Shown here: piece after piece, positions 427-36,596 of the stretch
Numbering within the stretch: the first letter of the stretch is position 1
Layout: the number at the start of each line of letters is the position of its first letter
Source: Bacteroidales bacterium
GTDB lineage: Bacteria > Bacteroidota > Bacteroidia > Bacteroidales > Muribaculaceae
Length of the DNA stretch: 39,386 nt
Assembly: GCA_022768005.1 (NCBI GenBank)
Contig: JALEMF010000016.1
Location: forward strand, 1 to 39,386
Reading direction: 5' to 3'
Position numbers and translations under genes: made by a program
The notes under the pieces: model-generated
Told to the model about the DNA's origin: nothing
The model's input: the letters and a program-made list of their open reading frames with translations, nothing else
Databases searched by the model: none

Positions 427-501
427 TGGTGGCGGGAGGAGGACTCGAACCTCCGACCTTTGGGTTATGAGCCCAACGAGCTGCCACTGCTCCACCCCGC
501 G
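427..501 (-). tRNA. tRNA-Met (CAT), initiator type
   Basis: Reverse complement CGCGGGGTGGAGCAGTGGCAGCTCGTTGGGCTCATAACCCAAAGGTCGGAGGTTCGAGTCCTCCTCCCGCCACCA. CAT anticodon, GGG/CCC pairs in the anticodon stem, unpaired 1-72 position (C/C), encoded CCA. Confidence 0.95.
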
Positions 502-25152: not shown

Positions 25153-27624
25153 TTATCTGAGTTCAGCTCCGAGTTGTTTTTTCAAATTGGTGATAATCTT
25201 GTTCATTATACCATCGATTTGCTTGTCCTGCATAGTCTTTTCATCATCTTGTAGAGTAATGGAAATAGCGTAGGACTTCTTACCTTGAGGTAAGTTTTTA
25301 CCTTCGTAAACGTCAAAGAGTTTCACGGAGCGGAGAAGTTTGCGTTCGCTTTCACGTACCACTGCTTCAATCTTTTCCATTGCCACAGCTTTGTCAATAA
25401 GGAGTGCAAGGTCACGAACCACAGGCTGAGTCTTAGGCAACGGAGTGAAAGTCACTTTGCTTCGCAATGACATTTGTACGAGAAGTTTCCAGTCAAGTTC
25501 GGCATATACCACTTCTTGCTTGATATCAAGTTTTTTGAGTTGCTGTTTTGACACAATACCCATACGTCCGATATGTTTACCTGCCTTTGTGTCAATAGAA
25601 AGTGCGGCAGCGAAAAGTTCATTATCGGCATTTTGTGCAATAACGATTTCTTTGCCGTTAATTCCGAGACGACGCAAAATGTTTGCTACGATTGCTTTCA
25701 AGTCATATATTGTAGCAGGAGTAGCAGCAGAGTTCCATGATTGTTGACGGATATTTCCGGTAAGCCAGATTGCGAGGCGAGAAGCTTCGCTGAATGGTGC
25801 GAGCGGGGCTTCGTCTGTTGACTGTGCTTCAGGATTGCAGAAATACACGTTACCGAACTCGTACATCATCAAGTCCGACAGACGACGGTTGACGTTATGT
25901 GCAATGGATTCAAGTCCGCCGAAGATGAGTGACTGACGCATCACGTTGAGGTCATTGCTGAGCGGATTGAGCAAGCGCACGCAGTTTGCAGCCGGATATG
26001 TCTTGAGGTCAGCGTAATATGCTTCGGCAGTAAGAGAATTGTTAAGAATCTCATTAAAGCCCTGTGCAGTCAACTGCTCTGAAATCATCTTCTGGAGGTC
26101 GTCGGCACTATCTGTTGCAGTCTTGAATGAAAGAGAAGCGTGAAGTGCCTGAGGCATTTCAACATTGTTATATCCGTAGATTCTCAACACATCTTCCACC
26201 ACGTCGCAAGGACGAGTTACGTCAACGCGGTAAGTAGGCACTGCAAGGTTAAGTGCGCCTTCTTCTCTTGACACGATTTGTATTTCAAGTGCTTTGAGGA
26301 TTGTGTCAACAGTTTCTACAGGAATATCTTTGCCCACGAGGTCATGGAGATATTTGTATTCAAGATGCACTTCTGCAGGTTTTACTTCCACAGGATATAC
26401 ATCAACGAAATCACCGGCAATTTCCCCGCCTGCGAGTTCTTGTATCATCTTAGCGGCAATCTTGAGTGCGTACATCGTGCCGTTTGGGTCAACACCGCGT
26501 TCAAAACGAAACGATGAATCAGTGCTGAGCTGATGACGGCGAGCAGTCTTACGTACTGATGTAGGGTTGAAGCAAGCGCTTTCGATGAATACGGAGGTAG
26601 TACCTTCCGTAACACCGGAGTCAAGTCCGCCGAACACGCCTGCGAGACACATCGGCTCTGCGTCGTTGCATATCATCAAGTCATGGCTGTCAAGTTTGCG
26701 TTCAACGCCGTCAAGAGTGGTGAACGGTGTACCGTCAGCACAAGTTTTCACAATAATTTTGCCACCCTTGATTTTATCTGCATCAAAGCAGTGCAACGGC
26801 TGGCAGAACGCGTGAAGGATAAAGTTCGTGATATCCACAATATTATTAATAGGACGGATACCTACGGCTGAAAGTCTGTCTTTAAGCCATTTAGGACTTT
26901 CAGCAACTTTTACGTCATGAATAGTAATGCCGCTGTAACGTGTGCAAACGTCTTTGCTGACCACGTCAACTGCAATAGGTGCTTTTGCCGACTTGTTTAC
27001 ATCAAATATCCCTGTCTCAGGCTTATGAAGCGATGCCTCAACACCTGATGCGATAAGTTTTGCGCACAAGTCGCGGGCTACGCCGTAATGCGATGCAGCA
27101 TCTATACGGTTCGGAGTAAGGTCAACTTCAAGAACGAAGTCTGAAGTGATGCCGTAATATTCGGCAGCCGGAGTACCCGGTTTAACCTCTTCTTTCAGCA
27201 CGATAATTCCATCGTGAGAAGTACCGATACCGATTTCATCTTCAGCGCAAATCATACCGAATGATTCAACACCGCGGATTTTAGACTTTTTAATTTTAAA
27301 TTCTTTGTCACCATCGTAAAGGACAGTGCCGACAGTAGCTACAACCACCGTTTGACCTGCAGCAACATTAGGTGCGCCGCAGACGATCTGAGTAGCATTA
27401 CCGTCACCAAGGTCAACTGTAGTGATGTGCAAGTGGTCACTGTCAGGGTGTTCAGTACAAGTGAGCACTTTACCGATAACAATTCCGCGAAGTCCGCCGC
27501 GGATAGATTCAACTTCTTCTACAGAACCTGTTTCAAGTCCGATAGATGTTAGTGCGGCAGCAAGTTCGTCAGGAGTGAGATTGAAATTGACGTACTCTTT
27601 AAGCCATTTGTATGAGATATTCAT
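25153..27624 (-). CDS. pheT: Phenylalanine--tRNA ligase beta subunit
   Basis: MNISYKWLKEYVNFNLTPDELAAALTSIGLETGSVE, tRNA-binding HPDSDHLHITTVDLGDG, B3/B4 and B5 domains, C-terminal FDX-ACB-like LFDVYEGKNLPQGKKSYAISITLQD. Confidence 0.97.
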   Translation of the reverse strand: MNISYKWLKEYVNFNLTPDELAAALTSIGLETGSVEEVESIRGGLRGIVIGKVLTCTEHPDSDHLHITTVDLGDGNATQIVCGAPNVAAGQTVVVATVGTVLYDGDKEFKIKKSKIRGVESFGMICAEDEIGIGTSHDGIIVLKEEVKPGTPAAEYYGITSDFVLEVDLTPNRIDAASHYGVARDLCAKLIASGVEASLHKPETGIFDVNKSAKAPIAVDVVSKDVCTRYSGITIHDVKVAESPKWLKDRLSAVGIRPINNIVDITNFILHAFCQPLHCFDADKIKGGKIIVKTCADGTPFTTLDGVERKLDSHDLMICNDAEPMCLAGVFGGLDSGVTEGTTSVFIESACFNPTSVRKTARRHQLSTDSSFRFERGVDPNGTMYALKIAAKMIQELAGGEIAGDFVDVYPVEVKPAEVHLEYKYLHDLVGKDIPVETVDTILKALEIQIVSREEGALNLAVPTYRVDVTRPCDVVEDVLRIYGYNNVEMPQALHASLSFKTATDSADDLQKMISEQLTAQGFNEILNNSLTAEAYYADLKTYPAANCVRLLNPLSNDLNVMRQSLIFGGLESIAHNVNRRLSDLMMYEFGNVYFCNPEAQSTDEAPLAPFSEASRLAIWLTGNIRQQSWNSAATPATIYDLKAIVANILRRLGINGKEIVIAQNADNELFAAALSIDTKAGKHIGRMGIVSKQQLKKLDIKQEVVYAELDWKLLVQMSLRSKVTFTPLPKTQPVVRDLALLIDKAVAMEKIEAVVRESERKLLRSVKLFDVYEGKNLPQGKKSYAISITLQDDEKTMQDKQIDGIMNKIITNLKKQLGAELR

Positions 27625-27712: not shown

Positions 27713-27744
27713 CAAATTTACAAAGAATACGTTGATTATGCAAA
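27713..27744 (-). promoter_or_regulatory. Predicted pheT promoter (TTTG-N20-TAAATTTG)
   Basis: Minus-strand TTTG (27741-27744) and TAAATTTG (27713-27720), about 90 bp upstream of the pheT start. Confidence 0.55.
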
Positions 27745-27770
27745 AAATAATTTTAGAGTTCGAACAGGCA

Positions 27771-27803
27771 CAAAAAAAATTATCCGTCATCACGACGAAT
27801 AAT
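27771..27803 (-). terminator. Rho-independent terminator of a short minus-strand transcript
   Basis: Minus strand ATTATTCGTC-gtgat-GACGGATAATTTTTTTTG: 10-bp stem (one mismatch) and T8 tract, with no long ORF upstream. Confidence 0.75.
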
Positions 27804-27834
27804 CTCTTACCTTAAATCTAATACCATGAAAAAC
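27772..27834 (-). ncRNA. Candidate ~60-nt short transcript with six-codon ORF (MVLDLR) and terminal hairpin
   Basis: Minus strand TAACTTTG-tacaagtttttc-ATGGTATTAGATTTAAGGTAA-gag-hairpin-T8: promoter element, mini-ORF (27807-27827) and terminator in about 75 bp. Confidence 0.55.
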
Positions 27835-27839
27835 TTGTA

Positions 27840-27847
27840 CAAAGTTA
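27840..27847 (-). promoter_or_regulatory. -7 box (TAACTTTG) of the short transcript
   Basis: Reverse complement of caaagtta; exact TAnnTTTG match. The -33 element is weak (TGTTTTAT). Confidence 0.55.
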
Positions 27848-28081
27848 ATGCTTATATGTTATAAAACATAATTTATCACCACATTTTTCTTAGTATTTAA
27901 CATTATTTCATTATTAGGACTGAAAATCAACAGTTATTTACAGTTAATTACTATACACAATTGCTTTCACAAGAGCAAACTGAGATTATTGGTTCATCAA
28001 GAGCTTCTTTAATAAACATCACGATTCTATCATTTAAAAATTGACAATACATTGGGTAAAAGACAACGTAATCAAAGAAAG

Positions 28082-36117: not shown

Positions 36118-36500
36118 AAAGCAGCCGGACGTCTCGTCGCTGACAAGATTTTTTACTTGTTTGAGGAAAGTCCGGGCAACATAGAGCACCATATTTCTTA
36201 ACGGGAAGTTATCGGCAACGGTAAAGGCAACGTGACAGAAAATAACCGCCACTGACGTGGTAAGGGTGAAAAGGTGGGGTAAGAGCCCACCGGGTGGCAT
36301 AGTGATATGCTGCGCCGCACGCCTTATGGGTTGCAAGGTCAAGTATACCGCCATTTAAGGGTTGCTCGCCCATTGGCGGGGGGTAGACTGCTATAGAACC
36401 GTGGCAACACGTTTCACAGATAAATGACGAGACGCTGATGTTGGCTCGCTCCGGCGATAGTGACTCAGCGACATAACCCGGCTTACAGTTCGACTGCTTT
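36118..36500 (+). ncRNA. rnpB: RNase P RNA (bacterial type A)
   Basis: Hallmarks GAGGAAAGTCCGGGCaacatagagca, ACAGAAAATAACCGCC, GGTAAGGGTGAAAAGGTGGGGTAAGAGCCCACCG, and 3' AGATAAATGACGA...ACATAACCCGGCTTACAG; terminal P1 pairing AAAGCAG/CTGCTTT, then poly-T. Confidence 0.97.
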
Positions 36501-36596
36501 TTTTATTTTACTATTCTACATATTTTAACATTCTTAAATGTAACCAAACCATATTCCGCTACGTCTATATCACAGAAACAAAAAACAGACGCAGAT

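Follow-up and report, generated by a model that had tools for sequence, protein, structure and literature searches.

FopS was first described in Bacteroides thetaiotaomicron (Ruttiger et al. 2025; PMC11697453), in which 14 paralogs of approximately 65–70 nt each combine an unpaired 5′ seed (R1/R1′) with a terminator hairpin. Through pairing at translation starts they keep susC-type mRNAs from being translated, an effect relieved by the RRM protein RbpB, and control of the RNAs was ascribed to an 'unknown transcriptional regulator' (PMC11697453). The range reported earlier for the family was the Bacteroidaceae. Cur (BT4338) is a Crp-family master regulator of carbohydrate use with the consensus wwwTATGTTnTAnAACATAwww (PMC3878776; PMC6989115). 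It acts both ways, activating and repressing, and fusA2 is its strongest target in B. thetaiotaomicron (PMC6989115); a Cur site was also reported upstream of BT4338 itself (PMC3878776). FopS and Cur are two central glycan-use switches of gut Bacteroidales and have so far been handled separately. The RNA analysed here belongs to a known family, and the worthwhile new point is a conserved Cur operator over FopS promoters.

Architecture and family assignment of the unit upstream of pheT

A minus-strand promoter, a small RNA and an intrinsic terminator had been claimed upstream of pheT in the window (the whole stretch of 39,386 nucleotides that was analysed), and direct reading of the sequence found them in place, with an RNA of ~67 nt. 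In 5′ to 3′ order on the minus strand, TAACTTTG (27847–27840) is followed by TACAAGTTTTTC, ATGGTATTAGATTTAAGGTAA (27827–27807), a stem-loop and T8. Immediately 5′ of the promoter box lies the palindrome TATGTTTTATAACATA (27870–27855), which the preliminary description had overlooked. The features, all on the minus strand, were as follows:

27852–27873, minus: 22-bp operator AATTATGTTTTATAACATATAA, matching the Cur/BT4338 consensus in full (read directly; recurrent in FopS promoters)
27867–27870, minus: TATG, bases 1–4 of the operator, where the −33 box would stand, with 19 nt between it and the −7 box (promoter spacing comparison)
27840–27847, minus: −7 box of the sigma-ABfr promoter, TAACTTTG (read directly; box in 90 of 93 FopS copies)
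27770–27836, minus: FopS sRNA, full length of the RF04319 model, 1–71 (57.3 bits, gathering cut-off 56)
27809–27833, minus: unpaired seed UUUUUCAUGGUAUUAGAUUUAAGGU, corresponding to R1/R1′ (covariance alignment, fold and comparison of 93 copies; role from PMC11697453)
27807–27827, minus: mini-ORF ATG GTA TTA GAT TTA AGG TAA within the seed (frame comparison, 93 copies)
27772–27803, minus: intrinsic terminator, 10-bp stem, 5-nt loop and T8 (folding; covariation)
27713–27744, minus: second sigma-ABfr promoter, TTTG-N20-TAAATTTG, presumably that of pheT (read directly)
25153–27624, minus: pheT, phenylalanyl-tRNA synthetase beta chain, neighbour outside the unit (annotation)

Elsewhere in the window, a class A RNase P RNA (36121–36501, plus strand) and a tRNA (430–501, minus strand) were located.

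The transcription start was placed at ~27836 by homology to the RF04319 model. The arms of the terminator stem were read at 27803–27794 and 27788–27779, with T8 at 27779–27772, and folding of the RNA returned this single hairpin (−14.7 kcal mol−1, z = −2.9; 2 of 200 shuffles were equally good). The sigma-70 promoter scan and the generic terminator scan were uninformative at this locus, the terminator being absent from the output of the latter. The 20-nt core occurred once in the window at ≤3 mismatches and was not found in shuffles.

An Rfam search, which the preliminary description had proposed, matched the RNA to RF04319 (BTncRNA_FopS) over the full model, and on this covariance match the minus-strand RNA is a FopS family member, with a score barely above the cut-off (57.3 vs 56 bits; E = 6e-8 for a 401-base region). 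The stretch GUUUUUCAUGGUAUUAGAUUUAAGGU is the same as in the RF04319 model and is unpaired in the predicted fold, the only hairpin is the 3′ one, which forms the intrinsic terminator, and the RNA has its own sigma-ABfr promoter, with TATG instead of TTTG at −33. Five FopS copies were found in this genome, which its PheT relatives assign to the Muribaculaceae. The related sRNA GibS (RF04182) was rejected as the identity of the RNA at 29.4 bits against a gathering cut-off of 115.

Distribution, copy classes and the six-codon frame

The impression that the core recurs in Bacteroidales was correct: the RNA was present in 29 of 40 relatives, in 88 of 393 genomes of the order and in all 23 sampled Muribaculaceae genomes, with 1–14 matches each. 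Copy statistics were computed on 93 unique FopS copies gathered by a pattern that requires GTATTAGAT, so that these nine bases are invariant by construction. The main class, A, comprises 54 copies with AAGGTTA; class B, to which the window copy belongs, comprises 29 copies with a short linker and AAGGTA; in the 8 copies of class C, ATA replaces ATG.

Several further occurrences were recorded. Class C copies with the seed variant ATAGTATTAGATTAAGATAAAGG are followed directly by an ECF sigma factor gene (PG0214-like; L005:1501-2176 and L161), and a degenerate cNMP-binding gene stands on the opposite flank. Tandem FopS-like RNAs, consisting of TTCATGGTATTAGTTTTTAAGGTTA with a hairpin and, ~84 nt apart, ATGGTATTAGAAGGTTAATTAGTTAAGC with a second hairpin, stand at the pheT loci L143, L145, L147, L148 and L150 of Prevotellaceae and rumen Muribaculaceae. 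The exact FopS seed, mostly with a hairpin, is also present in eight viral contigs (L225–L232), in which no TAnnTTTG box was found just 5′ of the seed; in L225 the seed comes after a tRNA-like 3′ end.

The preliminary description had left the choice between an independent RNA of ~60 nt and a micro-peptide gene, and likewise between a widespread small RNA and a leader-peptide family. The independent RNA of ~60–70 nt and its wide occurrence as RF04319 were borne out, and the peptide half of both proposals was not. A gene for a micro-peptide (MVLDLR) or leader peptide would account for the intact six-codon frame of the window and for class B, in which 25 copies hold ATG, six codons and a stop (TAA in 23, TAG in 2). 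Against it, ATG is absent from 12 of the 93 copies and the six codons with the stop are intact in only 25 of the 93. In the other 4 class B copies the frame extends to TGA after 12 codons, and class A has different frames, of which 30 stay open as far as the sequence was read, and mostly lacks a stop inside the RNA, so that the main class has lost the stop. Conservation of the seed is at the nucleotide level and takes in third codon positions as well as the bases that precede ATG, and small ORFs were excluded at the fopS loci of B. thetaiotaomicron by the authors of that study (PMC11697453). When mini-ORF and stem were compared for conservation, as had been suggested, it was the hairpin that covaried: all cells of its alignment (100%) were paired, three pairs had changed on both sides, and the covariation score was matched by 0 of 500 shuffles. 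The micro-peptide was rejected on frame conservation and is hardly credible. Since ATG and stop vary across classes A, B and C, the mini-ORF is, judged from these comparisons, a by-product of the base-pairing seed of FopS and no peptide gene.

The unit and pheT share a strand and are 146 nt apart, with the unit upstream, an arrangement that would suit a pheT leader or attenuator, yet no FopS was found just upstream of pheT in any of 80 PheT loci of relatives, the closest (87% identity) included, and the same RNA occurs at unrelated loci. The separate TTTG-N20-TAAATTTG promoter that had been reported between terminator and pheT was seen at 27744–27713, which gives pheT its own promoter after the FopS terminator, and the mini-ORF holds no Phe codon. 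Attenuation of pheT was rejected on synteny and is very improbable, in agreement with the earlier view that the unit is not simply a pheT attenuator.

The palindrome over the FopS promoter

In the window, all specified bases of the Cur consensus are matched by the operator, which is centred at −26.5 and covers the −33 position and the spacer. When a match of ≥10 of the 12 half-site bases was required in the upstream 80 nt, 42 of the 93 FopS copies carried such a site against 3.1 ± 1.8 in shuffles, and exact half-sites were found in 23 of the 93 against 0.01 expected; the copies are related by descent and these shuffle statistics overstate independence, though sites with dissimilar flanking sequence were found in 11 families. 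Forty of the 42 sites stand at one fixed place, centred −26.5 to −31.5 from the inferred start, and have TATG or CATG (once TTTG) in the −33 position, N19–N23 before the −7 box. When copies were picked by the left half-site alone, the right half followed at spacer 4 in 26 of 26, with one chance match at another spacing. Operator-type copies were present in all 11 families sampled.

The operator stands in for the canonical TTG at −33, which was found in 8 of 42 copies with an operator vs 38 of 48 without (p = 1.4e-8); operator-less copies mostly have TTTG/TTG N18–N22 before the −7 box. About half of the FopS copies are operator-less, including two of the five in this genome. The genome holds 11 exact TATGTT-N4-AACATA sites, of which three are FopS promoters; another lies between two divergent susC-type genes (G000:C23:7546-7561, L202).

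The elongation factor G2 gene (NCBIfam EFG2_Bacteroid; fusA2) of this genome served as a positive control: an exact site directly precedes it, with the same ACAT spacer as the published fusA2 site (cf. PMC6989115). A 232-aa Crp-family protein (cNMP_binding and HTH_Crp_2) was detected in 6 of 7 congeners and, when used as a query, in 7 of 7 other family genomes searched. The palindrome precedes the gene of this protein at 12 of 21 loci against 0.74 expected, and because this matches the site reported for BT4338, the protein is a likely Cur ortholog. Searches of the present assembly (92.75% complete) with the Crp-family profile and the 232-aa query did not find cur. The gene lipA, its usual neighbour in congeners, was not found in the assembly either, in a search run without a positive control; with lipA also missing and the assembly at this completeness, an assembly gap is the likely cause. 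An HTH_Crp_2 match was discarded as a candidate for the genome's own Cur at 18.3 bits (cut-off 27), in a 277-aa ORF unlike a Crp protein.

The palindrome could instead serve a Crp/Fnr-type regulator other than the Cur ortholog that prefers the same site. Genomes of the genus contain several Crp-family genes, and all that the assembly yielded was a weak cNMP-binding gene next to a FopS copy of class C; against such a regulator, the site is the Cur consensus and stands upstream of EF-G2 in this genome and of the conserved 232-aa Crp gene in many relatives, which makes this reading rather unlikely. A Cur ortholog is preferred, and the unit is very probably a trans-acting FopS sRNA with its own sigma-ABfr promoter and terminator, under a Cur/BT4338-type Crp-family regulator acting at 27855–27870.

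Proposed regulation and comparison with known systems

Transcription of FopS would begin at ~27836 under the sigma-ABfr promoter and stop at the terminator of the unit; the unpaired 5′ half of the RNA, UUUUUCAUGGUAUUAGAUUUAAGGU, is expected to pair with the translation start regions of target mRNAs. By analogy with the susC-type glycan transporters of B. thetaiotaomicron, the outcome would be translational repression in trans. A Cur-type regulator is predicted to bind the palindrome at 27855–27870 and, when active under carbon limitation, may turn FopS off; sugar-rich cells would then produce FopS and silence non-preferred uptake systems, as with Spot 42 under CRP in E. coli.

Repression by Cur appears likelier than activation because the operator covers the −33 region and the spacer. 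A published anticorrelation between FopS and GibS agrees with repression, since GibS levels peak on mucin and Cur targets are induced there (PMC10994844). Were Cur instead to activate FopS, it would under carbon limitation bring polymerase to promoters whose −33 element is poor, and FopS would then leave idle PUL mRNAs untranslated. Operator copies do lack the −33 TTG, a frequent trait of activator-dependent promoters; the sRNA MasB of B. thetaiotaomicron is activated by Cur (PMC10994844); and FopS has been described as a repressor 'when substrates are limited'. Against activation, the operator centre at −26.5 to −31.5 falls over the core promoter, whereas at fusA2 of this genome, an activated target, the site is well upstream, ~32 nt before the −7-like box, and the anticorrelation of FopS with GibS, whose peak is on mucin, where Cur targets are induced, runs the other way. 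Activation is thus somewhat unlikely, and repression is the sign adopted below. Control through Cur leaves unexplained the bile-salt response reported for FopS of B. thetaiotaomicron, and the operator-less half of the copies also counts against it.

A duplex-energy scan of start regions from 77 genes of the same genome gave no preference for susC. The seed complement was found at 8 places in the genome at ≤3 mismatches; FopS genes account for 5 of these, and a single place (C108, 3 mismatches) was shown to coincide with a start codon. The start region of EF-G2 (fusA2), TCTAATAACATGAAGG (L208:1574-1625), ranked third in the 77-gene scan; around its start codon it shows complementarity to the FopS seed, which is noted as a lead and not as a result. 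Should this pairing be real, fusA2 would be under Cur directly and a second time through FopS.

RRM_1 proteins, the class of RbpB, were found neither in this genome nor in 22 of the 23 sampled family genomes, many of them 97–100% complete; the one exception was a family relative, and the control genome of Bacteroides ihuae was positive. With FopS in 23 of 23 family genomes and RRM_1 missing from 22 of 23, FopS of Muribaculaceae seems to work without the RbpB-type antagonist known from B. thetaiotaomicron. The RbpB partner is a reported property of B. thetaiotaomicron and stands outside the definition of the RF04319 family.

Compared with FopS of B. thetaiotaomicron (RF04319; PMC11697453), the RNA is alike in length, 5′ seed, terminator hairpin, sigma-ABfr −7 box and the presence of multiple copies per genome. 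It differs in its Muribaculaceae host, in the class B copies with a shorter linker (67–68 nt), in the absence of RRM_1 proteins from most of these genomes, and in the Cur operator over the promoter, of which PMC11697453 makes no mention. GibS (RF04182; PMC7366714) shares the R1 seed with FopS and differs in being longer and in having a second seed, R2, and a PM2 promoter. MasB of B. thetaiotaomicron (PMC10994844) is likewise an sRNA, and experiments have assigned it to the Cur regulon; it is a different sRNA with a different target, and is activated rather than repressed by Cur.

Taken together, a Bacteroidales circuit of catabolite control like that of Spot 42 may be proposed tentatively, at slightly less than even chance, with Cur at the −33 of many FopS genes, FopS off under carbon limitation, and no RbpB in Muribaculaceae. 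Spot 42 works together with Hfq. Bacteroides is without Hfq according to the FopS authors (PMC11697453). Spot 42 (spf of E. coli; PMC3295665) is alike in the proposed logic, a Crp-family sugar regulator repressing an sRNA that silences non-preferred sugar uptake, and was also once suspected of encoding a short peptide; its sequence is unrelated to that of FopS, and the Cur–FopS step is a proposal. If it holds, the conserved Cur operator over the FopS promoter (11 families) would join FopS and Cur in one circuit. The circuit would parallel that of CRP and Spot 42, in bacteria whose phylum is described as having neither the classical sRNA chaperones nor, in the case of Cur, cAMP signalling.
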